A stretch of DNA of 42,847 nt from Deltaproteobacteria bacterium (GTDB taxonomy: Bacteria; Desulfobacterota; Desulfobacteria; Desulfobacterales; Desulfobacteraceae): contig JAQIBP010000028.1 in NCBI GenBank assembly GCA_027858995.1, positions 1-42,847 of the forward strand, given 5' to 3'. Position 1 is the stretch's first letter. Each line of letters begins with the position of its first letter. The notes under the pieces were generated by a model. That model saw only the letters and a list, made by a program, of their open reading frames with translations, was not told where the DNA came from and ran no database searches. The position numbers and the translations under genes are program-made. This document shows, piece by piece, positions 5,800 through 39,240 of this stretch.

Positions 5800-5811
5800 A
5801 AAGGGGTTAAA

Positions 5812-9800: not shown

Positions 9801-9901
9801 ACAAGAAAGCTTTAAAACACTATAAAGAAGCCCTTGGATCGTATATGGATGAGTGGTTTGAATATGAATTTACCATGGAGCGCATCAAAAAATTGAGATA
9901 G
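6824..9901 (+). CDS. zinc ribbon-pseudokinase-TM-trypsin-like protease-repeat protein
   Basis: A 1025-residue membrane protein. Domain order: zinc ribbon (Cys4, Cys7, Cys18, Cys21); a Ser/Thr-kinase-like domain (about 35-285); one transmembrane helix (about 304-324); a trypsin-like (HtrA-type) protease with intact triad His386 (LLTNRHVAC), Asp479 or 480 (KDDFAIL) and Ser557 (HRGNSGGP); then a helical TPR-like region (about 635-1025). The kinase part looks dead: HRD is replaced by IPHLILND, DFG by DYK, the glycine loop is lost and the VAIK lysine is Arg (VMIRIF). By topology the protease would be outside the membrane and the pseudokinase inside. It may sense a cytoplasmic state and control periplasmic proteolysis; no partner is encoded next to it. 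Stands alone between two intergenic gaps. Confidence 0.82.
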   Translation: MKLCRKCGQLVAEKILSCPSCGNEVVEGRKYIDDYQIVEVLHEGFSSILCRAAKDGMDDPVMIRIFTPQSGVDEKIADRLQKELEELKKLPENYFVRHLEIRKSSDGLWYRVSEWIEVETWSSLLASGRFQDYRTALKLFYKIVSILEGLHQIGHFIPHLILNDLIVIKDDNENLEVKIDYKLSRFLNPQVDQSPPMLKKLISSHPDIKNLRPLDFRSGIWSLGKVFVEILSADYEITDFQAKIDELQIPHDAQVLLKIMLADDPDLRPGSMAEVAEDLRQIINKKIETIPSPVREIRGLKKRISLLLLVMVLLLVLGILAWLYFPFKNQNSEVVLEDFANRYSSSVAFIVADYWLKDGETYFYRNRTEGTAFLVDKEGFLLTNRHVACPWLEDNNLYAIINRLKLLQKPVHFGYQLFLWFEGEKAFKRLPDFPGRLDLEDIYFVESAYSTNGVPQLTIAGVAKSPVKTWQIIKSPLKDDFAILKADKLPEGLEPLPIDYEMEALKIQKLSPVITLGFPLGSRTQEKTVNVSVTRGHVRRTFENMLQVDTSIHRGNSGGPIIDTSGKVIGIASKVAVGRTAGPIPIITLLPDIGMVLPITKAAIFLDELKAGQTKWNGVLDLSVDIKIKQITDLARKGQWDKAMALADQELKVSFHPMLVMTAGMMHFYSQDYKGAKHLFAQVLSMDRENSSARLMLFLMDWLKNKSAVNPYRQALIALDWRSPFEFYGYLVQVLERVVNEKSAIRGGYSENEKSWLYYIISLMRIKEGDMADAEKLLKKAVLVPDTESWPFFLSMSKLEQVQMQRLASLHKKIKRIAYQADIDSFSKTIKKEYGLKREQVEKLAPLIAKFKSSSITPGNKKEILEKIMVIVKNDETLLVGLTYYSAMNEEWELALKYARAFLEVEGRESAGFLSIGLLEPCILNKIGQKDEAMKKLEVFSSQIKNQWYRHIAKCLLGEETEKSLVQRAGESPEYLITAQCALGFWAEGAGKNKKALKHYKEALGSYMDEWFEYEFTMERIKKLR

Positions 9902-16125: not shown

Positions 16126-17076
16126 ATGGATATAACTCTTAGACAAATAAAATATTTTATTGCAGCTGCTGAAACTGGTAAAATTGCTGGAGCTGCAAGC
16201 ATGGTCAACATATCTCCTTCATCTATTACGGAATCGATAAAAGAGTTGGAAAATATTACAGGGGTATCTTTGATAACCAGACACCGCCGGGGAATTAATT
16301 TAACTTTTGACGGATATCGATTCCTCCAACATTGTTATAATATTAATGCTTCTGTATCTGATGCAGAATATGCTTTAAAAAATTCATTCACAGATATTTC
16401 TGGAGATCTGAACTTGGGTGTGACGATTACTGTTGCCGGATATTTTTTGGCTCCTCTTTTAGCTAGATTTGCACGAACCTTTCCTCACATTCGGGTAAAA
16501 TTATTTGAATATCCCCGAGATAAAATTGAAGAGATGTTGATGGAAGATAAACTTGATCTGGCTGTTTTGCTTGTATCTAATGTTAATCATATGAATTTTT
16601 CAACAGAAACTTTGGTCTGTTCCAAAAGACGACTCTGGACTTCAGTTAACCACATCCTTTCTTCTAAGGAAAATATCACTCTCAAAGATATTTCGAAAGA
16701 ACCCTATATACAGCTTATGATTGATGAAGCTCCGACCACTCATATGAATTTTTGGCGTAAGTACAACAGTACACCTAAAATAATTTTTCGTACGGAATCA
16801 ATCGAGGCAGTCAGAACTATGGTTGCAGTCAGATCGGGTGTTACTATACTTTCCGATGCAGTGTATCGACCATGGTCTCTTGAGGGAGATCGTATTGAAG
16901 CTCATGAATTAAAAGATGATATTCCAACTATGGATATAGGTTTGACTTGGTCAAAGCGTCGGAAACACAGTAAATGTGCCCTCTGTTTTATAGAGTTCTG
17001 CAAGATGGAGTATTCATCCAGCCAAACAAAAATAAAGGAGATTAAAAGGAAAACTAAAAAGTCACTCAGTAGTTAA
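16126..17076 (+). CDS. LysR-family transcriptional regulator
   Basis: A 316-residue LysR regulator. The N-terminal winged helix is clear: LRQIKYFIAAAETGKIAGAASMVNISPSSITESIKELE, followed by the linker helix and the periplasmic-binding-like effector domain (DISGDLNLGVTITVAGYFLAPLL onward, TMVAVRSGVTILSD near 240). The tail is very basic (IKEIKRKTKKSLSS). It faces away from the SDR/acyl-CoA dehydrogenase operon, so that operon is the obvious target. The catabolic operon from 18113 lies downstream in its own direction beyond an IS200 element and could be another target. The co-inducer cannot be read from sequence. Confidence 0.88.
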   Translation: MDITLRQIKYFIAAAETGKIAGAASMVNISPSSITESIKELENITGVSLITRHRRGINLTFDGYRFLQHCYNINASVSDAEYALKNSFTDISGDLNLGVTITVAGYFLAPLLARFARTFPHIRVKLFEYPRDKIEEMLMEDKLDLAVLLVSNVNHMNFSTETLVCSKRRLWTSVNHILSSKENITLKDISKEPYIQLMIDEAPTTHMNFWRKYNSTPKIIFRTESIEAVRTMVAVRSGVTILSDAVYRPWSLEGDRIEAHELKDDIPTMDIGLTWSKRRKHSKCALCFIEFCKMEYSSSQTKIKEIKRKTKKSLSS

Positions 17077-17265: not shown

Positions 17266-17864
17266 CCACCACCAGAGGTGGTGGCTTGAATGTGAACCGC
17301 TCAAAGCGGTTAATGCTTATTTCAACTATTCAAATAAATCTAACTGTTGATCTCGTTTCCTATCTTCCTTTTCATGGTTTTTAATATAAAGACGAATGGT
17401 TTCTTCATCTCTACCAACGGTTGATACATGATACCCTCTTGCCCAAAAATGTTGACCTGTAAAATTCTTTTTACGACCACTAAATTTTCTTGCAATAGCA
17501 ATTGCACTCTTTCCCTTAATAAAACCAACTACTTGAGCTACTGCATATTTGGGCGGAATGGATATCAACATATGTACATGATCTGACATCAGATGACCTT
17601 CCAGCACCTTACATTCTTTTTGTCTTGCCAAATCTCGCAAAATATCACCCAGATATTGCCTAATATGTCCATATATTTTCTTCTTTCTATATTTTGGTAT
17701 CCATGTTAGATGAAACATACACTCCCATTTTGAGTGATTTAAACTATTAATATTTCTCATGAAGCCTCTCTTTTAATTGAGCCTTAAGCGGTTCACTGAA
17801 TAAGAGGTTTTATATTTACTCCAGCAAATGTCAAACTCTGGGAGTCTCCCCGGCAGAGCCGGGG
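17266..17864 (-). mobile_element. IS200-type element (IS200/IS605 family, tnpA only)
   Basis: A single-gene element bounded by two perfect hairpins with the same AGA loop on the plus strand: CCACCACC/GGTGGTGG (17266-17284) and CCCCGGC/GCCGGGG (17848-17864). Such subterminal hairpins, not inverted terminal repeats, are the substrate of Y1 transposases. A third hairpin AACCGCT/AGCGGTT (17295-17311) lies after tnpA. The exact cleavage ends and target tetranucleotide cannot be fixed without a second copy. No tnpB is present. It separates the LysR gene from the operon starting at 18113. Confidence 0.72.
17326..17760 (-). CDS. tnpA: IS200/IS605 family transposase TnpA (Y1 HUH)
   Basis: A 144-residue single-strand transposase. 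The HUH metal motif is His61-Val-His63 (LMSDHVHMLIS), and the nucleophile is probably Tyr125 in ETIRLYIKNHE; FWARGYHVSTVG is the usual strand before it. Length is typical of an intact IS200 TnpA, so the copy may be active. The 5' leader carries GTGAACCGCT (complement 17787-17796), exactly complementary to AGCGGTTCAC in its 3' region (17292-17301 on the other strand), which could fold the message or regulate translation. The ATG has a GAGAGG-like site upstream. Confidence 0.92.
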   Translation of the reverse strand: MRNINSLNHSKWECMFHLTWIPKYRKKKIYGHIRQYLGDILRDLARQKECKVLEGHLMSDHVHMLISIPPKYAVAQVVGFIKGKSAIAIARKFSGRKKNFTGQHFWARGYHVSTVGRDEETIRLYIKNHEKEDRKRDQQLDLFE

Positions 17865-18092: not shown

Positions 18093-18116
18093 ATGAAAAA
18101 AAGATTTTTATTATGA
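18093..18116 (+). CDS. possible seven-codon leader overlapping the reductase start
   Basis: An ATG at 18093 opens MKKRFLL and its TGA overlaps the ATG of the reductase fusion gene by the four bases ATGA. The reductase gene itself has no good ribosome-binding site, so translation could be coupled to this leader. It may equally be chance in AT-rich DNA. Confidence 0.2.
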   Translation: MKKRFLL

Positions 18117-20722
18117 GTAGTCATGAATGCGCAACTTTGTTTAGCCCTTTTGTTTTAAAAGGTTTAAAGGTCAAAAACAGGCTGGTCCGATCGGCCATGG
18201 AGACTGGGATGGCTGATTTAGACGGCTATGTTACAATAGACAATTTAAATATCTACCGCATGGCAGCTGAAGGTGGTGTTGGTCTTATCATCACCGAAGC
18301 TATCGGTGTACACCTTTTAGGGCGATCCTTTCATGAGCAGATTGCAGCCTGGGAGGATAAAAACATACCAGGGCTGAAACAATTATCAGATGAGATTCAT
18401 ATTCATGGAGACGGAGCGGTTGTTTTTGCACAGCTGCAAAGTGCAGGTGCTTCTGGTTGGGGTTATTCTTATGGTCAGGTAGATACTGAAATAAGTTTGG
18501 ATACCATGCATGAGGAGCAGATTGAAACTTTGATACAGGCCTTTGGTGAGGCTGCAGCAAGGGTAAAAAAAGCTGGTTTTGATGGGATTGAGTTCCACGG
18601 GGGGCATGGATATATTATTTCGCAGTTTCTTTCCCCAGCTGTCAATCATCGAACAGATAAATGGGGAGGAAGCCTAGAGAAGAGGATGCGATTTCCACTG
18701 GAGATATACCGGGCAGTACGGCAAAAGGTAGGCAACGATTTTCCAGTTGGAATCAAAATGAACACAGCAGACTATCTGCCAGGAGGTCATTGGGTGCAAG
18801 ATACGTTTAAGATTGCCAAACGATTTGCAGAAGAGGGATTTGATTTTATTGAGGCCAGCGGTGGCATGGGATTCATGACAGAATTGAGGGAATCTCTGCG
18901 TAAGAAGGTTGATAAGAAAGAGTATTATTTTAGTGAAGCGGTTGATGAGTTCGTGGATGCGTTAAAAGGGACAGACACTGCTCTTATGGTGGTTGGGGGA
19001 ATTGGCTCGCCACGGGTGATGGAGAAACTATTAGATCAAGGTGTGGATTTTATATCTCTTGCCCGTCCATGGTTAGCTGAGCCGGATTTTGCCAATCGTG
19101 TGAAAGCAGGAGACCTGAGAATGTCCCGTTGTGTATCCCGGGAGCGCCTGTGCAATTTATGTCTGACAAAGTTAGCCACAGGCTCTGTGACATGTTACAA
19201 GTTTTACCCTGGTTACTGCCGAATGGAGTGTCCCATTGACCAGGATGTGCCCGGTTACACTGCATTGATAGCACAGGAAAAATTTAATGAGGCACTGAAA
19301 GTGATTAAAAGGGATAATCCACTTGCCGGTGTATTGAGCCGGGTGTGTGATCATCAGTGTGAGCAGATATGCCGTGGTGAAACTGGAGAACCTCTATCCA
19401 TTCGGGATCTGAAACGTTTTGTGACAGACTACGGTCTAAAGCATAGCCTGATGGTAACAGCGGAAATGGAGATAACGGGTGGACGTGGCAAGGTGGCCAT
19501 TATTGGTTCGGGCCCTGCTGGACTGACCTGTGGTTTCTATTTGGCGAAGCTGGGATATAATCCTACCATATTTGAAAAGCTTCCTGTGAAAGGGGGGATG
19601 CTTGAAACTGGAATTCCGCGGTATCGTCTGCCAAAAGAGGTACTGAAGGCTGATATTGCCTATATTGAGAGTGCAGGTGTAGAGATCAAAACGGGGATGG
19701 CGCTTGGTGAAGACTATGCGGTCAAGGATCTATTTGAACAGAACCACAAAGCAATATTTCTTGCGATGGGTGCGCCGGTAGGAGCGCAACTGAATATCGA
19801 AGGAGCTGATCTCGATGGTGTACTGATTGGGCTTGATTTTCTTAAGGATGTAAATTTGGACGTATCGGTAGAGGTAGGCAAGAGGGTTGTGGTCATTGGT
19901 GGTGGAAGTGTGGCAGTGGATGTGGCAATGACGGCGGTTCGTTTGGGAGCTGAGAAGGTACAGTTAGTTTGTGTTGAGTCACGAGAGGAGATGCCGGCCT
20001 ACCTATGGGAGTTGGAAGATGCAGTAGAAGAAGGGGTGGTGATTCATGATAGTTGGGGACCAAAGCAAATAAAGGGAGATGGCAGAGTAACAGGAGTTGA
20101 ACTTGTTGAGTGTACATCGGTGTTTGACCATCAAGGGGTCTTTTGTCCGGAGTATGATGAAAATGTTGTAAAAAGTTTGTCTGCGGATACGGTTATTATA
20201 GCTATTGGTCATGGCGTGGATCGAAGCGTTATTGAGGGCGTACCAGGGATTACAGTGGCAGCAGCAGGAACCATCGAGGCTAACAAGGAGACTCTTGAAA
20301 CCGGAATTCCAGGTGTCTTTGCAGGAGCGGATGTGGTAACAGGTCCCAATAGTGTTGTAAAGGCAGTGGCTGCGGGAAAAGCAGCTGCGGAATCCATTGA
20401 TCGATACATCAAGGGGATTTCACTGCTAAGGACTCCAAAGCAGGAGAAGTACAGTCCGTTTGTGAAAATGCTGAGACCAACTGCATTTATAGAACCATCA
20501 GAGCAGATATTAAAGGAGAATTCGCTAAGGCAGGTGGCGCCAAAGCGTTCTGCTAGCGAACGAAGAAGGAATTTTAAAGAAATTGCTGGGCGACTGAGTA
20601 AGGAGCAGGCGATCCAGGAGGCCAAACGGTGCCTGAAGTATGATCTTGAGCTAGAAGAGAAGAGTGCTGCGAGAATGGCCGATATGGGAAAAGCCACTTT
20701 CGTTTTAACATCGGACGACTAA
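18113..20722 (+). CDS. OYE-type FMN oxidoreductase fused to Fe-S and GltD-like FAD/NAD(P) domains
   Basis: An 869-residue fusion. Residues 1-335 are an Old Yellow Enzyme TIM barrel (LFSPFVLKGLKVKNRLVRSAM; FHGGHGYIISQFLSP with His162 and His165; NHRTDKWGGS; VVGGIGSP). Cys340, 347, 350 and 361 suit a 4Fe-4S cluster as in 2,4-dienoyl-CoA reductase, with altered spacing. Residues about 366-440 are a Fer4_20-like Fe-S domain (Cys369, 373, 412, 416, 420), then a GltD-like part with FAD motif GSGPAGL (465-471), RYRLPKEVL and a second nucleotide motif GGGSVAVDVAM. Electrons would run NAD(P)H-FAD-Fe-S-FMN, the logic of dihydropyrimidine dehydrogenase with the FMN barrel placed first. It heads the operon, so reduction (or oxidation) of an unsaturated ring before opening is likely. 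Substrate unknown. Confidence 0.85.
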   Translation: MSSHECATLFSPFVLKGLKVKNRLVRSAMETGMADLDGYVTIDNLNIYRMAAEGGVGLIITEAIGVHLLGRSFHEQIAAWEDKNIPGLKQLSDEIHIHGDGAVVFAQLQSAGASGWGYSYGQVDTEISLDTMHEEQIETLIQAFGEAAARVKKAGFDGIEFHGGHGYIISQFLSPAVNHRTDKWGGSLEKRMRFPLEIYRAVRQKVGNDFPVGIKMNTADYLPGGHWVQDTFKIAKRFAEEGFDFIEASGGMGFMTELRESLRKKVDKKEYYFSEAVDEFVDALKGTDTALMVVGGIGSPRVMEKLLDQGVDFISLARPWLAEPDFANRVKAGDLRMSRCVSRERLCNLCLTKLATGSVTCYKFYPGYCRMECPIDQDVPGYTALIAQEKFNEALKVIKRDNPLAGVLSRVCDHQCEQICRGETGEPLSIRDLKRFVTDYGLKHSLMVTAEMEITGGRGKVAIIGSGPAGLTCGFYLAKLGYNPTIFEKLPVKGGMLETGIPRYRLPKEVLKADIAYIESAGVEIKTGMALGEDYAVKDLFEQNHKAIFLAMGAPVGAQLNIEGADLDGVLIGLDFLKDVNLDVSVEVGKRVVVIGGGSVAVDVAMTAVRLGAEKVQLVCVESREEMPAYLWELEDAVEEGVVIHDSWGPKQIKGDGRVTGVELVECTSVFDHQGVFCPEYDENVVKSLSADTVIIAIGHGVDRSVIEGVPGITVAAAGTIEANKETLETGIPGVFAGADVVTGPNSVVKAVAAGKAAAESIDRYIKGISLLRTPKQEKYSPFVKMLRPTAFIEPSEQILKENSLRQVAPKRSASERRRNFKEIAGRLSKEQAIQEAKRCLKYDLELEEKSAARMADMGKATFVLTSDD

Positions 20723-20797
20723 AGTATGGTAAACAAAAAGAGACGAAGCGATTGCTGCATGCTTCAAAAGTATTTTAAAATTTAAAAGGAGAGAACA

Positions 20798-21874
20798 ATG
20801 AAAAAAATTAATTTTTTTGTAAAATTGGCTTTATTAGTGACAATGGTAGTATTTTTCTTTATTCCGCAGGTTTCAGCCAAGTCTTATAATGTTCAAGTGT
20901 GGGATCCTCCATTTAACATGGATAGTCCCAGAACTGAAATGGATTATGTCCCTTTGGAAAAGGCGGAAAAAAAATGGGATATCAGTGTTTCATTTCCTCA
21001 TATGAAAGATGCATACTGGCTGGCTGTTAATTATGGAATTGTTGATGAGTGCAGACGATTAGGGGTGAAGATGCAATTATTATCAGCAGGTGGCTACGTA
21101 AACCTGAATAAGCAGATTTCTCAAATTGAGGATAGTGTTGCTAACAAAACTGATGCTGTGATTATTGGTGCAATCTCTTATGAGGGGTTGAATAATGTGG
21201 TATCTGAAATCAGAAAAAAAAATATTCCGGTTATTGATATCATAAACGGTATGTCATCAAAAGAGCTTTCAGCCAAATCACTCGTCTCCTTTGGTGAAAT
21301 GGGTTCTAAAACAGGTGAATATCTTGTTAAACTCCATCCGAAAGGCAGTAAATCAGTTAATGTTGCATGGTTCCCCGGTCCTTCAGGTGCTGGCTGGGTA
21401 GAGGCTGGTAACAAGGGATTTTCCGAAGCGATACAAAAAGGTGCTGTAAAGATATTAGCAACAAAATACGGTGATTCAGGAAAAGAAGTCCAGAGCCGGT
21501 TGGTGGAAGATACTCTTGAAGCATTTTTTGGTGATATTGATTATATTGTCGGCACAGCTCCAACTGCCGAAGCAGCTACAAGCATCTTGAGGTCAAGAGG
21601 CCTGACTAAAGAGATTAAAATTCTCGCTTACTATTTTACACCAGGTGTCTACCAGGGAATCAAAAGCAACAAGATTATGGCTGCCCCAACGGATTCTACA
21701 GTAATTCAAGGACGTATCGCCGTTGACCAGGCTGTAAGGATTCTGGAAGGAAAACCGTATACAAAACATGTCGGACCTAAATTATATATTATAGATTCCA
21801 GCAATATCAATTCCTTTGATAGAGATAGTGCATTAGCTCCCGATAACTTTAAACCTACATTTAGTGTTAAATAA
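20798..21874 (+). CDS. TorT-like periplasmic substrate-binding protein
   Basis: A 358-residue periplasmic binding protein (type 1 fold) with a clear signal peptide (charged MKK, hydrophobic core, cleavage after VSA at about 27). The body follows TorT, the TMAO-sensing binding protein, more than sugar binders: FPHMKDAYWLAVNYGIVDE, LLSAGGYVNLNKQISQIED, LVKLHPKGSK, DIDYIVGTAPTAEAA, PGVYQGIKSNKIMAAPTDSTVIQGR. No TorS-like sensor kinase is nearby; instead an RbsA/RbsC-like ATPase and permease follow at once, so here it should deliver ligand for import. The ligand is probably a small polar N-containing molecule handled by the downstream enzymes. Strong GGAGAG ribosome-binding site. Confidence 0.85.
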   Translation: MKKINFFVKLALLVTMVVFFFIPQVSAKSYNVQVWDPPFNMDSPRTEMDYVPLEKAEKKWDISVSFPHMKDAYWLAVNYGIVDECRRLGVKMQLLSAGGYVNLNKQISQIEDSVANKTDAVIIGAISYEGLNNVVSEIRKKNIPVIDIINGMSSKELSAKSLVSFGEMGSKTGEYLVKLHPKGSKSVNVAWFPGPSGAGWVEAGNKGFSEAIQKGAVKILATKYGDSGKEVQSRLVEDTLEAFFGDIDYIVGTAPTAEAATSILRSRGLTKEIKILAYYFTPGVYQGIKSNKIMAAPTDSTVIQGRIAVDQAVRILEGKPYTKHVGPKLYIIDSSNINSFDRDSALAPDNFKPTFSVK

Positions 21875-21908
21875 TTGTATACAGATAAAATAGAGAAAAA
21901 AAGTAAAA

Positions 21909-23432
21909 ATGATTAACAATAGAGACAATGAAACTTCCCTGCTGAAGTTGGAAAATATTTCAAAACGATTTCCAGGTGTTTTGGCTCTTTCCAAGGTTGA
22001 TTTTGACCTTCGTGCCGGGGAAGTTCATGTCCTTTTTGGTGAAAATGGTGCCGGTAAGTCCACATTGATAAATATCATTGCCGGTGCCATGAAACCAACA
22101 TCAGGAACAATTTTGTTTCGTGGTCAAGAAACTCATTTTTCAAATGCCCATATTGCCAGGAAACTTGGTATTCACGCAGTTTTTCAGGAGTTTTCATTAA
22201 TTCCTCAACTTACTGTGACGCAAAATCTCTTTTTAGGTATGGAAAAAAATCGTTATGGTTTTCTTAAAGAAAAGAAAATGCGACAACAAATGAATGAGAT
22301 TTTAAAACGTCTTGATTTTGACCTTGATCCTAAGAAAAAAATTTTCCAACTCACTCGTGCTGAGCAACAAATGGTTGAAATTGCAAAAGTTTTTGGTTCT
22401 GATTTGTCTGTCTTGATTTTAGATGAACCTACGGCTTCTTTGACTGAAAAAGAGACTCAACGTCTATTCGCTCTGATTGAGCAAGCCAAAAACAATAAAG
22501 TTGGCATTATTTACATCACCCACCGAATGGGGGAGATTAATAAAATTTCAGATCGAATAACAATTTTACGAGATGGACAATATATCAATACGGTTAAGAC
22601 TGACAGCGTTACAGACAATGAGCTGATCGAGCTAATGACCGGCAGAGTTATTGATCAAATTTTTCCTGATATTGAATATAATCCTGGAAAAACTATTCTG
22701 TCTGTCAAAAACCTTACGACTGTTGACAACTCTGTTAAAGATATTTCAATGGAATTTAAAAGCGGTGAGATAGTTGGAATGTCAGGTCTGGTCGGTTCAG
22801 GTAAATCTAAAGCTATGAGGGCCTGTTTTGGGATCGAACCGATAAAGAGTGGTTCGATTAATTTTGATGGTAACGAGCTTACCAGAATTACACCTGCAAA
22901 AATGCTGGATATGGGAATGTTTTATCTCCCGTCGGACAGGCGTACCGAGGGACTAGTTATGATGCGTAATGTGTGTGAAAATATAACGCTTGCGGCTTTA
23001 TCACAACCAAAACTGTCATTATATTCCATGTTGCTCAAACGAAAAAATGAGAATGAATTAGCCCTTGATTTATCTCAAAGACTGAATTTACAGCCGCTAA
23101 ACATTAGTCGCAGCGCTGACCATTTTTCCGGTGGTAATCAACAAAAAATATTATTGGCAAAAGCTTTAACCCGGAATACCGAGCTCTTTATTTTTGATGA
23201 GCCAACGGTTGGTGTTGATGTTGGCACCCGAGCTGCAATTTATGAATTTATCCGTGATTTGTGCCAGCAAGGAGCTGCTATTGTATTGATTTCATCTGAT
23301 TTGCCGGAAATATTGCATTTGACTAACAGGACATATGTTTTTTTTAGGGGGGAATTGCGTGCAGAACTGAGCGGAAAAGACATAACCGAACAAAATATAT
23401 TATCTTATTTTTTTAAAAAAGAGGCTGATTAA
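21909..23432 (+). CDS. ABC transporter ATPase, RbsA/MglA type (two NBDs)
   Basis: A 507-residue double ATPase of the carbohydrate-uptake CUT2 type. First half: Walker A GENGAGKST (Lys50), Walker B VLILDEPTAS; its signature is the divergent LTRAEQQMVEIAKVF. Second half: degenerate Walker A GLVGSGKSK, signature SGGNQQK, Walker B LFIFDEPTVGVDVGTR. This asymmetry is normal in the family. It follows the binding-protein gene by 34 bases and precedes the permease by two, so the three form one importer on the inner membrane. Substrate is set by the TorT-like protein and is not necessarily a sugar. Confidence 0.9.
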   Translation: MINNRDNETSLLKLENISKRFPGVLALSKVDFDLRAGEVHVLFGENGAGKSTLINIIAGAMKPTSGTILFRGQETHFSNAHIARKLGIHAVFQEFSLIPQLTVTQNLFLGMEKNRYGFLKEKKMRQQMNEILKRLDFDLDPKKKIFQLTRAEQQMVEIAKVFGSDLSVLILDEPTASLTEKETQRLFALIEQAKNNKVGIIYITHRMGEINKISDRITILRDGQYINTVKTDSVTDNELIELMTGRVIDQIFPDIEYNPGKTILSVKNLTTVDNSVKDISMEFKSGEIVGMSGLVGSGKSKAMRACFGIEPIKSGSINFDGNELTRITPAKMLDMGMFYLPSDRRTEGLVMMRNVCENITLAALSQPKLSLYSMLLKRKNENELALDLSQRLNLQPLNISRSADHFSGGNQQKILLAKALTRNTELFIFDEPTVGVDVGTRAAIYEFIRDLCQQGAAIVLISSDLPEILHLTNRTYVFFRGELRAELSGKDITEQNILSYFFKKEAD

Positions 23433-23434
23433 AT

Positions 23435-24457
23435 ATGAAAGATATTGATAACCCGAAAACTGAAAATCTACTGATCAAAATGGTCAAAACAACCTTTATT
23501 AAAATGGGAGTTCTACCTTTTCTTATTATATTGGCAACTATTATTTTTGCAATGCTGTCAGATAATTTTTTAACATCCCGTAATCTCATAAATGTTTCAA
23601 GGCAGACAACATATCTGGTTATTGTTGCAATGGGGCAAATGTTTGCTTTACTCACCGGCGGGTTTGACCTGTCAGTTGGAACCATTCTATCTCTTTCATC
23701 AGTAGTAGGGGCACTGGCAATGTCAGCAATGTATGCAGCTTTTCCGGGTTCCGTCGGCCTGGTTATATTTGTTGGGCTTTTGGCTGGACTTTTAGCAGGC
23801 TTATCTGTTGGTGTTATAAATGGTATTGGTGTTTCTGTTTTTAATGTAAATCCTTTTATGATGACATTGGGAATGTCTTCTGTCGGTTTTGGTATTGCTC
23901 TTTTTTTAACAGGAGGAGTTCCTGTGTATGGTATGCCGGAATCCTTTGGTAATATTTTTGGTTTTGGGAAATTCATGGGTGTTCCTACACCAGTTCTAAT
24001 TACCCTGGGATTAATATTTTTGGTGTATTTTTTGGTGAACTGGACTAAAATTGGCAGATATTTCTACGCAGTTGGAGGAAACATAAAAGCTTCATCCCTC
24101 TCAGGAATCAATACAAAATATGTGCTTTTCTTAGCGTATGTTGCCTGCAGTTTTCTTGCTACGATCAGTGGATTATTACTCACGGCACGTCTTGAAACAG
24201 GAGAAGCAAATATTGGTATGACCATGCCGTTAGAATCAATAGCCGCTTGTGTTATCGGTGGAGTAAGTTTAAGAGGAGGGGTAGGACGTGTAGAAAGCGT
24301 GGTATTAGGAGCTTTGTTTATCGGGTTAATCCAAAATGGAATGAATCTGGCAAGAATTGAATCATATTTACAAACAGTTGTGCTTGGAATTCTGTTGATC
24401 TTCGCTGTTGCATCTGATCAGTTCAGGCAACACTTAATTGCTAAATCGCAAGATTAA
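23435..24457 (+). CDS. ABC transporter permease, RbsC type
   Basis: A 340-residue membrane protein with about eight to ten hydrophobic helices and the family markers FDLSVGTILSLSS near the start and GGVSLRGGVGRVESVVLGALFIG near the end. It would form a homodimeric channel with the adjacent double ATPase. It begins two bases after the ATPase stop, so translation is probably coupled. N-terminal residues before the first helix (MKDIDNPKTENLLIKMVKT) are cytoplasmic. Confidence 0.9.
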   Translation: MKDIDNPKTENLLIKMVKTTFIKMGVLPFLIILATIIFAMLSDNFLTSRNLINVSRQTTYLVIVAMGQMFALLTGGFDLSVGTILSLSSVVGALAMSAMYAAFPGSVGLVIFVGLLAGLLAGLSVGVINGIGVSVFNVNPFMMTLGMSSVGFGIALFLTGGVPVYGMPESFGNIFGFGKFMGVPTPVLITLGLIFLVYFLVNWTKIGRYFYAVGGNIKASSLSGINTKYVLFLAYVACSFLATISGLLLTARLETGEANIGMTMPLESIAACVIGGVSLRGGVGRVESVVLGALFIGLIQNGMNLARIESYLQTVVLGILLIFAVASDQFRQHLIAKSQD

Positions 24458-24490
24458 TTTTAATGAATTCAATAAGGAGAGTATAAGGTG

Positions 24491-25240
24491 ATGAAAGTTG
24501 ATTTAAATGCTGATATGGGTGAAAGTTTTGGCATGTACAAACTAGGACATGACGAAGAATTTATGAAATATATTACCAGCGCAAACGTTGCTTGTGGTTT
24601 TCATGCGGGCGATTCATCTGTTATGAAAAAAACTGTGGAGCTGGCAAAAAAATTCAATGTGCAGGTTGGAGCTCATCCAGGGCTGCCGGATCTTCAGGGT
24701 TTTGGTCGTCGTGAAATGAAACTCACTGTTGAAGAGATATATGATATTGTAGTGTATCAGGTTGGCGCATTAAAGGGGTTTACGGATGCAGCAGGTTTGC
24801 AGCTTCATCATGTAAAACCGCATGGATCACTTTACGGAATGGCCCATCGAATGGAAGATGTTGCCCAGGCAATCTGTCAGGCAATTAAAGATATTGATAT
24901 GAATATGTATATCTATATAATGAAGAAAGGTGTTATCTCTTCAATAGCTGAATCAATGGGAATCAAAACTGTTTACGAGCTCTATTCAGACTTGGGATAT
25001 GATGCTGAGGGTAACCTTGTTATTACCAGAGCACATGACACCCATGATTCGCGTTCTGTAACCGACCGTGTAAAAAAAATGGTGATTGATCATAAAGTGA
25101 CAGCACTTGACGGAACAGAGATTACTATTGAGGGAGACTCTGTTTGTGTGCATTGTGATACACCGGGTGCTATCGATATTGTTAAAGCTGTTCGTTCGGT
25201 GCTGGAAGATGCGGATTGTGAAGTTACATCTCCGCTGTGA
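24491..25240 (+). CDS. pxpA: LamB/YcsF family (PxpA-like) cyclic-amide hydrolase component
   Basis: A 249-residue protein of the family whose characterised member PxpA is part of ATP-dependent 5-oxoprolinase. Family motifs: VDLNADMGESFG, NVACGFHAGD, VGAHPGLPDLQGFGRR, HHVKPHGSLY. ATG at 24491 is chosen over the GTG three bases earlier because the family starts MKVDLN. In PxpABC this subunit acts with PxpB and PxpC to open a lactam ring. Here the partners are urea-carboxylase-type domain proteins plus a biotin carrier and biotin carboxylase, so it may hydrolyse an N-carboxylated ring rather than a phosphorylated one. 5-Oxoproline remains possible as substrate. Confidence 0.85.
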   Translation: MKVDLNADMGESFGMYKLGHDEEFMKYITSANVACGFHAGDSSVMKKTVELAKKFNVQVGAHPGLPDLQGFGRREMKLTVEEIYDIVVYQVGALKGFTDAAGLQLHHVKPHGSLYGMAHRMEDVAQAICQAIKDIDMNMYIYIMKKGVISSIAESMGIKTVYELYSDLGYDAEGNLVITRAHDTHDSRSVTDRVKKMVIDHKVTALDGTEITIEGDSVCVHCDTPGAIDIVKAVRSVLEDADCEVTSPL

Positions 25241-25283
25241 TATTAAATTTAACCAAACTTGAAAAAAAGAAGGAGGTTGTCAA

Positions 25284-26270
25284 ATGAGCAATGATAAATA
25301 TGATGTCATTTTAGACACCATGGATGCGACTGAATCAAGGCTCGAGATATTGTTCAGGCAGGCTGGCGATGGATTTATTCAGGTCGAATATGGCCGTAAA
25401 CAGCGGGCTGCCTTGCAGGACTCATTTCGAATGCTGGCTATTAATGACATTATTAAAAGTAAGAGTATCAATGGTCTTATCGAAACTGTTCCCGGGATTC
25501 GTACTAATCTGCTGCATTTCGATCCTGAGATTATAAGTTATCAGGAACTGATTGAAAACGTGAAAGAGTCAGAAGACTCCATGTCAACAATCGATGATGT
25601 GGTATTGGAATCCCGCATTATTAATCTGCCTATTGCTTTTGAGGACAGTGAAACGAAAAAATCTGTTGCAAAGTATGTGGCTGAGGTTCGACAAGATGCC
25701 CCTAATGTTATCAACGGATATAATATTGAATACATGGCTATGTGTAACGGTGTATCTGTAGCTGAAGTCAAAAAAATGCTTTTGGGTACGGAGTGGTTCA
25801 ACTCAGGAGGTGGCTTTTGGCCAGGTGGAGCATTCTTGTGGCCTATGGATCCACGCTGTGCTCTTGTTGTTCCAAAATACAACCCACCACGTACCTGGAC
25901 TCCGGAAGGAGCGGTTGGTATTGGAGGCCCTTGTGTCTTTACGTATACAACACCAACAGGTGGGGGGTATCAGCTTTTTGGGCGAACCATCCCTATTTTC
26001 CAGTTTGCCTGTAAACATCCGATGTTCAAAGATGGACCATTTCTATATCGTAATGCTGATCGAGTGAGATTTCATGAAACAACAGAGAAAGAAGTCCTTG
26101 AAATTTATGGTCATGTTCATGAAAAATTTGATTATGAATATATTATTGATCAGGGGGAAATCAAAGCAAAGGACTATTTGAAATGGTATAATTCCGAAGA
26201 TATTCAAACAGGGATGAAAAAACTTAAAGAGAAACAGGCAGTAGGTGTAAAAGAGGCCCCGCTTCTATAA
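25284..26270 (+). CDS. urea-carboxylase-type carboxyltransferase subunit (AHS1/CT_C_D, PxpB-like)
   Basis: A 328-residue protein with the AHS1 (KipI/PxpB-related) domain, but about 100 residues longer than KipI/PxpB. Its core matches the carboxyltransferase domain of urea carboxylase from memory: MDPRCALVVPKYNPPRTWTP (188-207), EGAVGIGG, GGGYQLFGRT (226-235), then PFLYRNADRVRFHETTEKE. In urea carboxylase this fold moves CO2 from biotin to a urea nitrogen together with the AHS2 half, which is the next gene. An excellent AAGGAGGT ribosome-binding site suggests high expression. The roughly 100 N-terminal residues keep the KipI-like VEYG and VPGIRTNLLHFDP features. Role as half of a biotin-dependent amide carboxylase is inferred from this resemblance and from the operon. 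Confidence 0.82.
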   Translation: MSNDKYDVILDTMDATESRLEILFRQAGDGFIQVEYGRKQRAALQDSFRMLAINDIIKSKSINGLIETVPGIRTNLLHFDPEIISYQELIENVKESEDSMSTIDDVVLESRIINLPIAFEDSETKKSVAKYVAEVRQDAPNVINGYNIEYMAMCNGVSVAEVKKMLLGTEWFNSGGGFWPGGAFLWPMDPRCALVVPKYNPPRTWTPEGAVGIGGPCVFTYTTPTGGGYQLFGRTIPIFQFACKHPMFKDGPFLYRNADRVRFHETTEKEVLEIYGHVHEKFDYEYIIDQGEIKAKDYLKWYNSEDIQTGMKKLKEKQAVGVKEAPLL

Positions 26271-26309
26271 TTTTTTAGTTTTATATTGTAACATAAGGAG
26301 ATATTTCTA

Positions 26310-27293
26310 ATGCTTAAAGTAATAAATGGGGGAATCGAGACTTTGGTCGAGGATTGGCCAGGGCGACTGGGTTATCTTGGTAAAGGCATGTCTGCCTCGG
26401 GTGCTTTTGACAACGTATCTTTGGGTTTTGCGAATGTTTTGGTAGGTAACCCTTCAGGTAAAGCCGGTCTGGAAATTACAGGCGGATTCTTTGAGGCTGA
26501 ATTTAGTGATACTACTGTCATAGCTGTAACCGGCACAGATATGAAAGCATCAATCAATGGTGAACCAATTGTAATGTGGGAATCTTTGCAGGTTGAAAAA
26601 GGAGATATTATAAAATTTTTTCAGATAGGAGCTGTGGGATTTCGTTCCTATCTGGCTGTAGCAGGTGGAATTGATGTGCCTGCTTATTTAGGCAGCAAAT
26701 CAACATGTGTTTTCGGTAGTTATGGAGGTTTTAATGGTCGAAAGCTGGAAGCTGGAGATGAAATACAAATAGGTGAACCCAAGGGTAGTTTTTCCGAATT
26801 ATCCAGAAATCGCTTAAAAGAGGGCGTCGTTCCAGAGTTCACTAATGCGTGGGAATTGCGTGCTATTGTCGGACCTAATACTTCTCCTGATTATGTTTCC
26901 CAAAAAGGTATGGACTATCTTTTCAGCCATACTTCCAAAATTCAGCACACGTCCAACCGTTCAGCCTATCGACTGGAAGAGCTGCCAAATAGCTTTTTTG
27001 CCAGAACCGATGGTGGTGTGGGTGGAAGCCATCCTTCCAATATTATTGATCATGCCTATGCTATACGTGGAACATTGAATATTTGTGGTAACACCCCTAT
27101 ACTTCTGGTTGCAGACGGACCAACACTTGGGGGTTACATGTGTACATTACAGGTGATAAACGCCGATCTCTGGAAAGTCGGACAGGGTACACCTAATCGT
27201 GACACCATGAAATTCAGGCTTTCAAGCCAGGAGGAGGCTACACAGGCACGAATTAAACAAAATAAGTTGCTAAGTAAAAATTCTTTAGCTTAA
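26310..27293 (+). CDS. urea-carboxylase-type carboxyltransferase subunit (AHS2/CT_A_B, PxpC-like)
   Basis: A 327-residue AHS2-domain protein (KipA/PxpC-related). Segments recall the urea carboxylase domain: VEDWPGRLGYLGKGMSASGAFD, GNPSGKAGLEIT, YLAVAGGIDVPAYLGSKST, GGSHPSNIIDHAYA (from 238), VADGPTLGGYMC and ADLWKVGQGTP. Ordinary KipA/PxpC proteins share only part of this. It should pair with the preceding AHS1 protein to make the carboxyltransferase active site. AAGGAG lies upstream; the gap to the previous gene is 39 bases. The exact acceptor (urea, lactam, ureide) is not shown by sequence. Confidence 0.82.
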   Translation: MLKVINGGIETLVEDWPGRLGYLGKGMSASGAFDNVSLGFANVLVGNPSGKAGLEITGGFFEAEFSDTTVIAVTGTDMKASINGEPIVMWESLQVEKGDIIKFFQIGAVGFRSYLAVAGGIDVPAYLGSKSTCVFGSYGGFNGRKLEAGDEIQIGEPKGSFSELSRNRLKEGVVPEFTNAWELRAIVGPNTSPDYVSQKGMDYLFSHTSKIQHTSNRSAYRLEELPNSFFARTDGGVGGSHPSNIIDHAYAIRGTLNICGNTPILLVADGPTLGGYMCTLQVINADLWKVGQGTPNRDTMKFRLSSQEEATQARIKQNKLLSKNSLA

Positions 27294-27387
27294 AATTTAC
27301 ATTAGCAGCAAAATTTTGGTGTAACCATAATAGTTTTTTTTAATACGTTAAAAGAACAATATAGATACATTACAGGGAGAACAAAAA

Positions 27388-27612
27388 ATGGAAAAAAGTG
27401 TAAATGCAATCATGCCCGGGCTTTGTGCCAGAGTCGTGGTCAAAGAAGGTGACAAAATATCCAAGGGGCAAGAGGTGGCTGTTATCAATTGTATGAAAAC
27501 AGAAATTTCAATAACCTCTGAAAGCAGTGGGGTTGTAAAGAAGGTTCTGGCAAAGGAGTGGGATGATCTTCAAGTTGATGATCCAATGGTAATTATCGAA
27601 ACAGAGGAATAA
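27388..27612 (+). CDS. biotin carboxyl carrier protein
   Basis: A 74-residue stand-alone biotinyl domain. The accepting lysine is Lys37 in NCMKTEI, where Cys replaces the usual Ala of AMK and Thr replaces Met; MKTEI endings also occur in urea carboxylases and related enzymes. It opens with MPGLCARVVVKEGDKISKGQE. It is 94 bases after the AHS2 gene and 10 before biotin carboxylase, so it should shuttle CO2 between them. It is distinct from the carrier next to gcdA at 3547, which has the classic AMKME. Confidence 0.9.
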   Translation: MEKSVNAIMPGLCARVVVKEGDKISKGQEVAVINCMKTEISITSESSGVVKKVLAKEWDDLQVDDPMVIIETEE

Positions 27613-27622
27613 TAAAAATCAT

Positions 27623-28960
27623 ATGATATCAAAAATACTTATAGCTAATAGAGGCGAGATCGTATCCCGCATAATAAAAACCTGTAAAGAGATGAATATA
27701 TCAACAGTTGCAGTTTATTCTGAGGCTGATAAGCAAGCACCTTATCTTGAAGATGCTGATGAAACAGTATTAATTGGACCTGCAAATCCAGTTCAAAGCT
27801 ATCTGAATTTTGAAACAATCATTGATGCTGCCAGGCAAACCAATGCCGAAGCTTTGCATCCCGGATATGGGTTTCTATCTGAACGGGGAACATTTGCAGA
27901 AGCAGTACAACAAGCAGGAATTATCTGGATGGGTCCTTCTCCGCAGGTTTTAAAAGCCATTAGTTCAAAATGTTACTGCCGAAAGCTGGTTGACGAAGTA
28001 CAGGTACCCGTGATTCCAGGAACCCTTGATCTTGTTCAAAATGCAAATGATGTCATTGATTACGGTAACAATCACGTCTGGCCCGTATTTATCAAACTGG
28101 ATAAAGGTGGTGGCGGTAAGGGTATTGAAAGGGTGAATGGTGAAAATGATGCGGATGAAGTGTTCCAGCGAGCCAAAAGTATTGGGGAGATGGCGTTTGG
28201 TTCAGGTGACTGCTATATCGAAGAGATAGTTGAAAACTCCCGCCACATAGAAATTCAGTTTCTGGCAGATCAGCACGGAAATTGTGTCTGCCTTGGTGAA
28301 CGTGAATGTTCGGTTCAGCGCAGGCATCAAAAAATTATTGAGGAGGCTCCCTCTTTAGTTGTTACAAAAAATGATCGAAGTATGCTTTTTGACCGGACAG
28401 TAAAAATTGTACAGAAAATGGGTTACTATGGAGCTGGCACAATTGAATTCTTACGTTCGGAAGACGGCAATTACTATTTTATGGAAATCAATGCGCGTTT
28501 GCAGGTGGAGCATCCGGTAACTGAATACTTGACAGGTGTTGATATCGTCAAATGGCAAATATTAATTGCATCTAAAAAGACACTTGACTTCACCCAACAG
28601 ACTGTGAAGTTTGATGGTCATGCTATTGAAGCCAGAGTTTATGCAGAAGATCCTGAGACATTTATCCCGTCTCCGGGAACTATTACAGATCTGAAATTTC
28701 CAGAACAGGACCCTAAAATTCGTATCGACCATGCATTAAAAGCAAATGCTGTTGTTCCACCTTATTATGACCCTATGCTTGCCAAGGTGATTGCGTGGGA
28801 TATAGACCGCAAAAGTGCTTCAAATCGTCTTATTAAAGCATTGACCGAATTTCAAATCAAAGGTGTAAAAACAACCATACCAGTAAATCTGAAGATTTTG
28901 AAAAGTATGGAATATCAAGAGGGTAATATAGATACCAGTTTTATCGACAATTCACTATAA
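27623..28960 (+). CDS. biotin carboxylase
   Basis: A 445-residue ATP-grasp enzyme that carboxylates biotin with bicarbonate and ATP. Visible: ILIANRGEIVSRII, ALHPGYGFLSER, glycine-rich KLDKGGGGKGIERV, GERECSVQRRHQKIIEEAPS, and MEINARLQVEHPVTE with the catalytic Glu and Arg. Length is that of AccC. In this place, directly after a biotin carrier and two carboxyltransferase-domain genes, it completes a four-gene version of what urea carboxylase carries on one chain. It could also serve acetyl-CoA carboxylase, but no accA/accD is nearby. The weak ribosome-binding site suggests coupling to the carrier gene. It is the last gene of the operon; a 186-base gap without visible genes follows. Confidence 0.92.
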   Translation: MISKILIANRGEIVSRIIKTCKEMNISTVAVYSEADKQAPYLEDADETVLIGPANPVQSYLNFETIIDAARQTNAEALHPGYGFLSERGTFAEAVQQAGIIWMGPSPQVLKAISSKCYCRKLVDEVQVPVIPGTLDLVQNANDVIDYGNNHVWPVFIKLDKGGGGKGIERVNGENDADEVFQRAKSIGEMAFGSGDCYIEEIVENSRHIEIQFLADQHGNCVCLGERECSVQRRHQKIIEEAPSLVVTKNDRSMLFDRTVKIVQKMGYYGAGTIEFLRSEDGNYYFMEINARLQVEHPVTEYLTGVDIVKWQILIASKKTLDFTQQTVKFDGHAIEARVYAEDPETFIPSPGTITDLKFPEQDPKIRIDHALKANAVVPPYYDPMLAKVIAWDIDRKSASNRLIKALTEFQIKGVKTTIPVNLKILKSMEYQEGNIDTSFIDNSL

Positions 28961-29146: not shown

Positions 29147-30454
29147 ATGTCACAATTGAGTCAAGATTTATTGAAAAGAAGAGTGAAAAATATCCCCCAG
29201 GGTCCTTTTAATACAACCCTCGCCTTTATCAAAGATGCTAAAGGTGCAAGCATGGTTGATGTGGAAGGTAAAAAGTATATAGATTTTGCAGGCGGGATTG
29301 GTGTAAACAATGTTGGGCACAGCCATCCTAAAGTAGTGAAAGCCATAAAAGATCAGGCAGACTCATTCATTCACACCTGTTTTCATGTTGCCATGTATGA
29401 ATCCTATGTTGAGCTTGCAGAAAAATTAAATGATCTGGCCCCGGGCGATTCTCAAAAAATGACCATGTTTGCAAATTCAGGTGCGGAAGCTGTTGAAAAC
29501 GCAGTCAAAGTTGCCCGTTATGCCACTAAAAGAAGCGGTATTATCTGCTTTGAAAATGCCTTTCATGGCAGAACCCAGCTTGCCATGAGCCTTACCAGCA
29601 AGGTAAAACCCTATAAATTCAATTTCGGGCCATTTGCACCGGAAATTTACAGGATGCCTTATGCATATTGTTATAGATGTCCATTTAACCTTGAGCATCC
29701 TTCCTGTGGCACAGCCTGTGCAGATTATCTTGAAGATTTTTTCATCAGCAATGTTGCTCCTGAAAACACGGCTGCAGTAATTGCTGAAACCATCCAGGGA
29801 GAGGGCGGGTTTGTAACACCTCCACCTCAATATTTTCCAAAACTTAAGAAAATTTGTGCCAAGTATGAAATACCTCTGATAATTGATGAAATCCAGACAG
29901 GTGCCGGCAGAACAGGTAAGTTTTTTGCCATAGAGCACTGGGGGATTGAACCGGATATTATTACCATGGGAAAAAGTTTTGCCGGCGGTATGCCCTTAAG
30001 TGCTGTGACCGGAAAAGCAAGTCTCATGGAAGTTCCCCATGTCGGTGGTCTTGGCGGCACTTATGGCGGTAACCCTGTTTCCTGCAAGGCTGCCCTTGCG
30101 GTTCTGGATATTTTGATTGAAGATAAACTTATAGAAACTGCTCAAAACTTAGGCGAGACCCTGTGGGAAAGATTTAAATCTCTCCAGAAAAATCATGAAA
30201 TCATCGGTGATGTCAGAGGCAAAGGTCCCATGCTGGGTCTTGAACTTGTTAAGGACAGGCACACCAAAGAACCAGCCGCAGAAAAGGCTAAAAAGCTGAC
30301 CCAGCTCTGTTATGAAAAAGGGTTGATCATTCTTTCCTGTGGAAATTATGGTAATGTTATCAGAACTCTTATGCCACTTGTTATAACAAAAGAGGAATTG
30401 GATACCGGGCTTTCAATACTTGAAGAGAGTTTTTGTGAACTGGAAAAACAATAA
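29147..30454 (+). CDS. class III aminotransferase, 4-aminobutyrate type
   Basis: A 435-residue PLP enzyme (GabT/ArgD clan). The PLP lysine is Lys276 in ITMGKSFAGGMPLSAV; IIDEIQTGAGRTGKFFA and ETIQGEGGF are present. A cysteine-rich insert (Cys175, 178, 187, 191 in YCYRCPF and PSCGTAC) is seen in many anaerobe GABA-aminotransferase-like proteins and may bind metal. It would convert an omega-amino acid to a semialdehyde. The next gene, 12 bases on, is an aldehyde:ferredoxin oxidoreductase that can oxidise such an aldehyde, a tight functional pair. Whether it belongs to the same transcript as the operon ending at 28960 is unclear, since its base composition looks more like the flanking genes. Good AGGAG site. 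Confidence 0.85.
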   Translation: MSQLSQDLLKRRVKNIPQGPFNTTLAFIKDAKGASMVDVEGKKYIDFAGGIGVNNVGHSHPKVVKAIKDQADSFIHTCFHVAMYESYVELAEKLNDLAPGDSQKMTMFANSGAEAVENAVKVARYATKRSGIICFENAFHGRTQLAMSLTSKVKPYKFNFGPFAPEIYRMPYAYCYRCPFNLEHPSCGTACADYLEDFFISNVAPENTAAVIAETIQGEGGFVTPPPQYFPKLKKICAKYEIPLIIDEIQTGAGRTGKFFAIEHWGIEPDIITMGKSFAGGMPLSAVTGKASLMEVPHVGGLGGTYGGNPVSCKAALAVLDILIEDKLIETAQNLGETLWERFKSLQKNHEIIGDVRGKGPMLGLELVKDRHTKEPAAEKAKKLTQLCYEKGLIILSCGNYGNVIRTLMPLVITKEELDTGLSILEESFCELEKQ

Positions 30455-39070: not shown

Positions 39071-39240
39071 AGTATTGGTATTATGTAACAACCTGTCGTA
39101 AATTACTTAAAATAGTTTGAATTTTATTTATTATTTTGATATGGAATTTTAGGATCTTTTCTTCCCCATTCTTTTATTTGATGTGCACTGCTGAGAAACA
39201 CTTTAGTTTTTTAAAATTTATTCAAAAAAAGGATTGTCCC

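Follow-up and report, generated by a model that had tools for sequence, protein, structure and literature searches.

Urea carboxylase (EC 6.3.4.6) and urea amidolyase bring together biotin carboxylase, AHS2, AHS1 and biotin carrier domains with a catalytic lysine, and follow the logic that a stable amide is N-carboxylated so that a hydrolase can cut it. The 5-oxoprolinase PxpABC combines a LamB/YcsF protein with an AHS1/AHS2 pair and opens a cyclic amide in an ATP-dependent reaction. A third system, caprolactamase CapAB, is described as ATP-dependent and in need of bicarbonate, giving 6-aminocaproate from the lactam, and caprolactam hydrolysis is there reported to be endergonic (PMC8453981). 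A gene set with likenesses to all three is located in an anaerobic Deltaproteobacteria bacterium (Desulfobacteraceae; GenBank assembly GCA_027858995.1) on contig JAQIBP010000028.1, the whole of which (42,847 nucleotides) was analysed and is termed the window; it is one contig (C74) of the 172 that make up a 3.98-Mb draft genome, 97.1% complete. Five consecutive genes, encoding a PxpA-like LamB/YcsF subunit, AHS1, AHS2, a biotin carrier and a biotin carboxylase, form the core of a longer same-strand run. It is rather probable that the five proteins constitute a biotin- and ATP-dependent lactam-opening enzyme of five subunits, served by its own importer and followed by a downstream pathway that would channel the amino acid product into energy metabolism.

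The carboxyltransferase halves of the window are approximately 33-40% identical to those of seven fused urea carboxylases, but the window has four separate chains in place of one, a LamB/YcsF subunit, downstream genes fitting an omega-amino acid, and no allophanate hydrolase over the model cut-off. The differences from PxpABC are of another kind, as PxpB lacks the lysine, biotin genes rarely adjoin it and the window AHS1 fails the PxpB model. With CapAB and the hydantoinase/oxoprolinase family, the predicted system would share an ATP- and bicarbonate-linked lactam hydrolysis that gives an omega-amino acid, whereas CapAB belongs to an unrelated protein family and works without biotin.

Pieces of the combination have been recorded elsewhere. 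The PA0493-PA0496 operon of Pseudomonas aeruginosa presumably also holds AHS1/AHS2 genes beside a LamB/YcsF gene. As described, it encodes a second biotin carboxylase together with a protein resembling AccB, and the precise function of PA0493 and PA0494 is there called unknown (PMC6249292). PDB entry 9yx5 likewise combines AHS1 and AHS2 with a biotin carboxylase in a single solved structure, and differs in its short AHS1 chain (210 residues). Judging from its name, we take its source organism to be a mycobacterium. A study from 2011 by Lombard and Moreira also concerns the family. It noted two hypothetical genes homologous to the urea carboxylase transferase domain in some bacteria and in Thermococcales, which like those of the window are separate genes and to which the passage concerned gives no function (PMC3199775). 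No activity is assigned to the five-gene set in the open-access literature searched (titles and abstract openings of the top-ranked matches). The parts are already known, the combination is visible in public annotation, and the prediction is testable.

Carboxyltransferase and biotin subunits

The AHS1 half (328 amino acids, 25284-26270, + strand; Pfam CT_C_D) and the AHS2 half (327 amino acids, 26310-27293, +; CT_A_B) both favour the urea carboxylase model over those of 5-oxoprolinase. AHS1 scores 225.3 bits against TIGR02712 (urea carboxylase) and 49.9 bits against TIGR00370 (PxpB), where it misses the cut-off of 145.55, and AHS2 scores 294.5 bits against TIGR02712 and 178.3 bits against NF045499 (PxpC). 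The opposite order is seen for the ordinary pair of the same genome, in which PxpB gives 60 bits with the urea carboxylase model and 214.3 bits with TIGR00370, thereby passing its cut-off, and PxpC gives 210 and 231 bits. As this ordinary PxpC also misses the NF045499 cut-off of 500, the same miss by the window AHS2 is weak evidence; on the wider TIGR00724 model (cut-off 230.2) the window AHS2 reaches 218.8 bits and the ordinary PxpC 304.6 bits. The cut-off of TIGR02712 itself (1303.85) is missed by every single chain (biotin carboxylase 472, AHS2 294.5, AHS1 225.3 and carrier 35.5 bits). The closest solved relatives of both halves are the Kluyveromyces urea carboxylase/urea amidolyase chains 3va7 and 5i8i, the former matching AHS1 at E 7e-37 and AHS2 at E 4e-61.

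Lys1605 of the Kluyveromyces enzyme (KlUA) is described as most likely the essential general base of carboxyl transfer (PMC5770610), and Lys198 of the window AHS1 aligns with it. In an alignment of 100 rows, prepared without four AHS1 open reading frames (ORFs) shorter than 300 amino acids (L062, L064, L067 and L068) and without L015, lysine occupies this position in all 46 window-type rows, in all seven fused urea carboxylases and in all three split sets of other phyla (Thermomicrobium, Roseateles and a haloarchaeon). The 43 canonical PxpB rows have arginine (40) or leucine (3) and never lysine. In a quick tree of 79 of these rows, from which 21 of the 43 canonical PxpB rows were left out for speed, the window type falls to one side of a branch with an SH-aLRT value of 100, and so do the urea carboxylases at a different branch with the same value; its deeper joins are unsafe because the tree program warns of long branches. 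By sequence comparison, the window AHS1 and AHS2 belong to the urea carboxylase side of the family, not to PxpB/PxpC.

The carrier (74 amino acids, 27388-27612, +; PF00364 Biotin_lipoyl, 57 bits) reads CMKTE at its biotinylation site, and the Met-Lys motif is present in 35 of 35 kept carrier homologs. The biotin carboxylase (445 amino acids, 27623-28960, +) contains the N, ATP-grasp and C domains (Biotin_carb_N, CPSase_L_D2 and Biotin_carb_C) and gives a full-length match to solved biotin carboxylases. Judged by these features, both proteins look functional.

Some related loci show peculiarities in their biotin genes. In Clostridium ljungdahlii (L050:4393-6354, -) and Acetobacterium bakii (L063:7566-9626, +) the biotin carboxylase is unexpectedly fused to a cytidylate-kinase-like domain (PF13189), and the biotin carboxylases of L069 and L042 (659 and 668 amino acids) are of a length similar to these fusions. 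Biotin protein ligase genes, recognized by Pfam in a cluster of five, adjoin L026 (15019-15936), L063 (13612-14412) and L042 (11172-12065). A second kind of biotin-associated set is found on the Allorhizobium plasmid pAtS4e (L144), where a PxpB-type (arginine) cluster occurs with a biotin carboxylase, two biotin/lipoyl carriers, PxpA and an aminotransferase.

Conservation of the gene set

A scan of named genomes by two peptide patterns, which reaches close relatives only and under-samples distant members, yielded 48 loci with AHS1 at 60-86% identity. The hosts are mostly sulfate reducers, syntrophs, acetogens (Clostridium ljungdahlii, C. ragsdalei and Acetobacterium bakii), Propionispira, Anaerovorax and other Bacillota bins, and include one Dehalococcoidia bin and one Bifidobacteriaceae bin. 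Together with the window and three more, 52 loci were examined, of which the 51 with an AHS1 match were counted (L070, with a 28-residue match, was dropped). All five core genes occur within 9.5 kb in 34 of the 51 loci, mostly of anaerobes. The control consisted of 41 canonical PxpB loci, all of the window's phylum (40 that we selected out of 76 places, and that of the window's own genome). When only fully flanked loci are compared, with at least 7 kb on both sides (34 of the 51 test loci, 28 of which are also complete for the five genes, and 30 controls), a biotin carboxylase is present within 9.5 kb in 28 of 34 test loci against 1 of 30 controls, a biotin carrier in 30 against none, PxpA in 32 against 23, a 4-aminobutyrate (GABA)-type transaminase in 15 against none, a gene of the aldehyde:ferredoxin oxidoreductase (AOR) family in 12 against one, and a TorT-type binding protein in nine against none. 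The single control biotin carboxylase belongs to the window's own genome, where it lies on the opposite strand approximately 5 kb from its PxpB. Fisher values for the neighbour associations range from 3e-14 to 0.02 and are too small because related loci were counted as independent; near-copies (L045/L047, L050/L069 and L059/L065) were kept in the counts. The glutamate dehydrogenase, PucR, CapA/CapB, DUF1097 and biotin ligase neighbours referred to in the text are single-linkage clusters, with one to three members scanned in each.

The original prediction had treated the split urea-carboxylase-like enzyme and the LamB/YcsF protein as one unit and had proposed neighbourhood conservation as a check. 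Such conservation is present, and the AHS1 lysine, the tree and the biotin-site lysine of the carrier also support the unit. The distribution is patchy at the same time: within the phylum the window-type AHS1 occurs in 7 of 297 genomes, two further matches being fused urea carboxylases. With the own genome included, the genus has it in a single genome out of 26 and the order in four out of 242.

It may be asked whether the biotin genes belong to an acyl-CoA carboxylase, or to a decarboxylase of that kind, instead of working with AHS1/AHS2. A CoA-type carboxyltransferase gene (PF01039; 3971-5704, +) is indeed present on the same contig, but it lies approximately 22 kb from the biotin genes, and none of the 51 other test loci and 41 controls searched matches it at E 1e-40, whereas the carrier and the biotin carboxylase stay with AHS1/AHS2 (30 and 28 of 34) and AHS1 keeps its carboxyl-transfer lysine. 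Such a role of the biotin genes is hardly credible.

Two further observations concern the composition of related sets. The split set on the megaplasmid of Thermomicrobium roseum (L071) has genes for a three-subunit xanthine dehydrogenase (XDH)-type molybdenum hydroxylase, a TorT importer, carrier, AHS1, AHS2, PxpA and BioY in a row, with accC divergent; in the haloarchaeal stretch no carrier gene is annotated. A cluster found in 16 loci, e.g. L050:13052-13543, consists of small proteins (163-188 residues; the single member scanned is a DUF1097 protein), encoded in many of these loci a short distance behind PxpA or the biotin carboxylase; the protein is perhaps a substrate channel or permease.

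Urea and 5-oxoproline

The window's own genome carries a second LamB/YcsF gene on contig C119, as part of a separate pxpABC set that adjoins TRAP transporter genes (large permease and binding protein). The original prediction reported that no allophanate hydrolase is present, and this holds for the whole draft genome, in which two amidase-type matches were obtained, the better at 213 bits and neither over the TIGR02713 cut-off of 511. That cut-off is not reached in any of the seven window-type genomes (best 257 bits), as against both genomes with a fused urea carboxylase, weaker amidase matches being present in all nine. The conclusion that the set does not serve plain urea use is supported by this contrast (0/7 against 2/2). 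Taken together, the separate pxpABC set and the lack of an allophanate hydrolase over the cut-off make plain use of either 5-oxoproline or urea unlikely.

A split urea or guanidine carboxylase devoted to nitrogen supply would account for the relationship of the carboxyltransferase and biotin carboxylase chains to urea carboxylase. It is, however, at odds with the distribution of allophanate hydrolase and with the separation of the two groups in the tree, and we know of no role for a LamB/YcsF subunit in urea use, so that this explanation is very improbable.

An ordinary 5-oxoprolinase (PxpABC) with incidental biotin genes deserves slightly more attention. The LamB/YcsF (PxpA-like) subunit (24488-25240, +; PF03746 LamB_YcsF, 310 bits) passes the cut-offs of two PxpA subfamily models, NF003814 (320.8 bits, cut-off 226) and NF003816 (240.2 bits, cut-off 213), while the equivalog models NF003812, NF003813 and NF003815 are reached neither by this protein nor by the other PxpA of the genome. 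The glutamate dehydrogenase cluster found near five loci, L031 among them, would also fit a glutamate product. Against this stand the failure of AHS1 at the PxpB cut-off that the PxpB of the same genome passes, the biotin carboxylase counts (28/34 against 1/30) and the additional presence of a canonical PxpB in four of the seven window-type genomes, and glutamate would require neither a GABA transaminase nor an AOR. An ordinary 5-oxoprolinase is accordingly improbable.

Transaminase, aldehyde oxidoreductase and the predicted substrate

Two genes downstream of the core give the best clue to its function. The first (29147-30454, +) encodes a GABA-transaminase-like class III aminotransferase that scores 546.6 bits against TIGR00700 (cut-off 506.65). 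The transaminases of L031, L045, L040 and L050 also exceed this cut-off, and that of L063 falls just under it. Among the matches listed for the window's transaminase, each of the 11 solved sequences at E values up to 1e-110 bears the name 4-aminobutyrate transaminase; other GABA-transaminase models are missed, e.g. PRK06918 (561 against 676). The second gene (30467-32221, +) encodes an AOR with AFOR_N (239 bits) and AFOR_C (403 bits) both over cut-off and matches PDB 1aor at E 4e-109. Depending on the locus, the transaminase gene immediately precedes AHS1, lies at a greater distance upstream, comes after the core or is encoded on the opposite strand, which suggests that its link to the core was made repeatedly.

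Locus L031 has the order importer, PxpA, transaminase, AHS1, AHS2, carrier, biotin carboxylase, old yellow enzyme (OYE), glutamate dehydrogenase and AOR. Next comes a protein that, among solved structures, is closest to 1u8v (E 4e-150), a 4-hydroxybutyryl-CoA dehydratase/isomerase of 4-aminobutyrate metabolism. The transaminase gene of Acetobacterium bakii is followed by one for an iron-type alcohol dehydrogenase. These neighbours all agree with an omega-amino acid product that undergoes transamination and, after it, oxidation or reduction. Homologs of both caprolactamase subunits, CapA and CapB, adjoin four loci (by cluster; L040 was scanned) and not the window's operon, and hydantoinase A/B domains were not detected among the window operon genes scanned. 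The original prediction that a cyclic amide would be carboxylated and then opened is kept in our reading, and the downstream GABA transaminase and AOR, which it had missed, point to a cyclic amide whose opening gives an omega-amino acid.

At the left side of the window a gene at 1959-3122 (-) encodes a non-decarboxylating glutaryl-CoA dehydrogenase (NF045552, 775 bits, cut-off 470), and the CoA-type carboxyltransferase gene mentioned above is followed by one for an enoyl-CoA hydratase (5812-6576, +). These three genes at 1959-6576 possibly represent a branch from glutaryl-CoA to crotonyl-CoA. As components of the system they were rejected, since neither the dehydrogenase nor the two genes beside it could be matched at E 1e-40 to any other test locus; a single 33% match to the hydratase was found in a control locus. 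The glutaryl-CoA dehydrogenase, which would fit a C5 product, is only circumstantial because it is absent near the other loci searched.

Gene run, importer and reductase

The run starts at 18113 with the gene for an 869-residue fusion of an OYE, a 4Fe-4S and a GltD-like flavin/NAD(P) domain (18113-20722, +; Oxidored_FMN, Fer4_20 and Pyr_redox_2). Importer genes follow, for a TorT-type periplasmic binding protein (358 amino acids, 20798-21874, +; Peripla_BP_4), a double ATPase of a sugar-type ABC importer (21909-23432, +; ABC_tran in two stretches) and an ABC permease (23435-24457, +; BPD_transp_2), and the five core genes complete a series of nine. ORFs and a Pfam scan confirm the nine genes on one strand and the named families, with intergenic gaps of 75, 34, 2, 30, 43, 39, 94 and 10 bases in order. 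The operon was initially taken to span 18113-28960; the nine genes stand and the end at 28960 does not, as the transaminase gene (gap 186 bases) and the AOR gene (gap 12 bases) extend the same-strand run to 32221. A promoter scan gave 43 promoter-like sites (43.7 expected) and a terminator scan 22 terminator-like sites (12.7 expected); none of the terminator-like sites listed lies within the 186-base gap before the transaminase, a result compatible with a continuous unit as well as with one split there.

The label TorT-type, used from the outset, is upheld by NF008185 (392.9 bits, cut-off 200), although TIGR02955 is missed (277.5 bits, cut-off 310). Among solved chains the binding protein matches PDB 4yhs with 455 bits and TorT itself (3o1h) with 187 bits. 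Since its gene precedes those of the ABC ATPase and permease, a part in an importer is likelier than one as partner of a sensor. The proposed link of an uptake system to the enzyme is supported by TorT-type binding proteins near 10 of the 51 loci and also in the Thermomicrobium set.

The OYE/Fe-S/GltD fusion is a candidate enoate or ring reductase. Its OYE domain bears the motif HGGHGY, which we take to denote the enoate-reductase kind of OYE. Locus L026 has, ahead of its core, a homolog of the same length with 78% identity, and in place of the ABC importer a gene for an SSF-type symporter; among the loci examined the 869-residue fusion is confined to these two. Shorter OYE proteins occur near nine further loci with all five core genes (354-374 residues in the eight for which lengths were obtained), and others near L049 and L068, both of which are without part of the core.

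These findings raise the possibility that reduction comes first, i.e. that the fusion saturates an unsaturated N-heterocycle or a 2-pyridone-like lactam before its biotin-dependent carboxylation and opening. Such an order agrees with the place of the reductase as first gene of the run, its recurrence together with the regulator (below) upstream of the L026 core, the shorter OYE proteins at other loci and the motif of the enoate-reductase kind. The OYE family is, however, present near only 13 of the 51 loci and near 4 of the 41 controls; when fully flanked loci alone are counted, the figures are 12 of 34 and 3 of 30 (p 0.02, with loci taken as independent), the weakest of the neighbour associations. 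The fusion is restricted to two loci, and OYE reductases are widespread and promiscuous. Prior reduction is unlikely, if the most plausible of the alternatives considered.

A LysR-type regulator gene (16126-17076, +; LysR_substrate, HTH_1) lies upstream of the run and has a homolog with 82% identity upstream of the L026 operon; from its position it is the probable regulator of the operon. Between it and the first operon gene an IS200-type Y1 transposase gene is found (17326-17760, -). Elsewhere in the window two large multidomain proteins are encoded, one weakly kinase-like with trypsin-like and TPR parts (6824-9901, +) and one with zinc ribbon, adenylate cyclase, AAA ATPase and TPR parts (39136-42633, +).

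Proposed reaction sequence and contrary evidence

The genomes show directly which protein families are present and that the core is conserved, and they also show the lysine, the biotin site and the transaminase/AOR neighbourhood; from these we infer the substrate, the N-carboxylation, the order of steps and the contact between subunits as follows. The TorT-type ABC system would import a small cyclic amide. If its ring is unsaturated, the flavin/Fe-S reductase of the window may reduce it beforehand. Biotin carboxylase and ATP would load CO2 from bicarbonate onto the carrier, from which AHS1/AHS2 would transfer the carboxyl group to the ring nitrogen, with Lys198 as putative base, thereby weakening the amide bond. 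The PxpA-like subunit would then hydrolyse the carboxylated ring, and the resulting N-carboxy-amino acid would spontaneously lose CO2 to give an omega-amino acid, the bicarbonate being recycled. The simplest candidates, and our best guesses, are GABA from 2-pyrrolidone or 5-aminovalerate from 2-piperidone. The transaminase would convert the product to a semialdehyde, which the AOR would oxidise to a dicarboxylate. In net terms, lactam, ATP and water would yield amino acid, ADP and Pi, with bicarbonate acting as a catalyst.

Several findings weigh against this lactam-opening scheme or limit its reach. The transaminase is missing from 19 and the AOR from 22 of the 34 fully flanked loci, and of 12 AORs seven are at least 48% identical to that of the window (itself included) while five share only 29-36%. 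The chain length of the product is ambiguous, with C4-type genes in L031 and a C5 (glutaryl-CoA) gene on the window's contig. Canonical PxpB does not form one group in the tree, as L139 and L141, both with leucine, fall on the lysine side. The remaining row of the alignment, the Allorhizobium PxpB adjoining biotin genes, has arginine at the Lys1605-equivalent position, and the rule that lysine marks a biotin partner therefore has an exception. Furthermore, the short AHS1/AHS2 chains of PDB 9yx5 share their entry with a subunit named as biotin carboxylase alpha3, so that biotin may serve PxpB-like pairs too. For no member of the set did we find an activity, a ligand or a structure.

Other contrary indications concern the substrate. 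The Roseateles split set is accompanied by an allantoin permease and a hydantoinase/oxoprolinase, which hints at other cyclic amides, the Thermomicrobium set by the XDH-type molybdenum hydroxylase and the biotin transporter gene, and a PucR-type regulator cluster (one member scanned) lies near six loci. One explanation for these neighbours is that the substrate is a hydantoin, a ureide or a similar cyclic amide, opened by the same carboxylation and hydrolysis. The Roseateles AHS1 is, however, on a separate tree branch, and the transaminases over the GABA cut-off together with the AOR fit an omega-amino acid product; a hydantoin- or ureide-like substrate is quite unlikely for the window.

Implications

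If the lactam-opening scheme is correct, a function would be provided for a conserved gene set that annotation pipelines break into pieces named PxpA, acetyl-CoA carboxylase and carboxyltransferase. An N-carboxylase would be added to a family with few known substrates. There is about an even chance that the set represents an undescribed class of enzyme, a biotin-dependent "lactam amidolyase", in which a urea-carboxylase-type carboxylase with LamB/YcsF in place of allophanate hydrolase drives the uphill opening of lactams by transient N-carboxylation, with bicarbonate as catalyst. Such a class would be one of the main systems by which anaerobes degrade lactams, and would account for a set of genes whose present annotation is that of 5-oxoprolinase or acetyl-CoA carboxylase subunits. 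The scheme would likewise have a bearing on why caprolactamase needs bicarbonate. For the organisms concerned, the system would constitute an oxygen-independent route for the use of lactams (2-pyrrolidone, 2-piperidone and perhaps caprolactam) in sediments, in guts and in acetogens such as Clostridium ljungdahlii.

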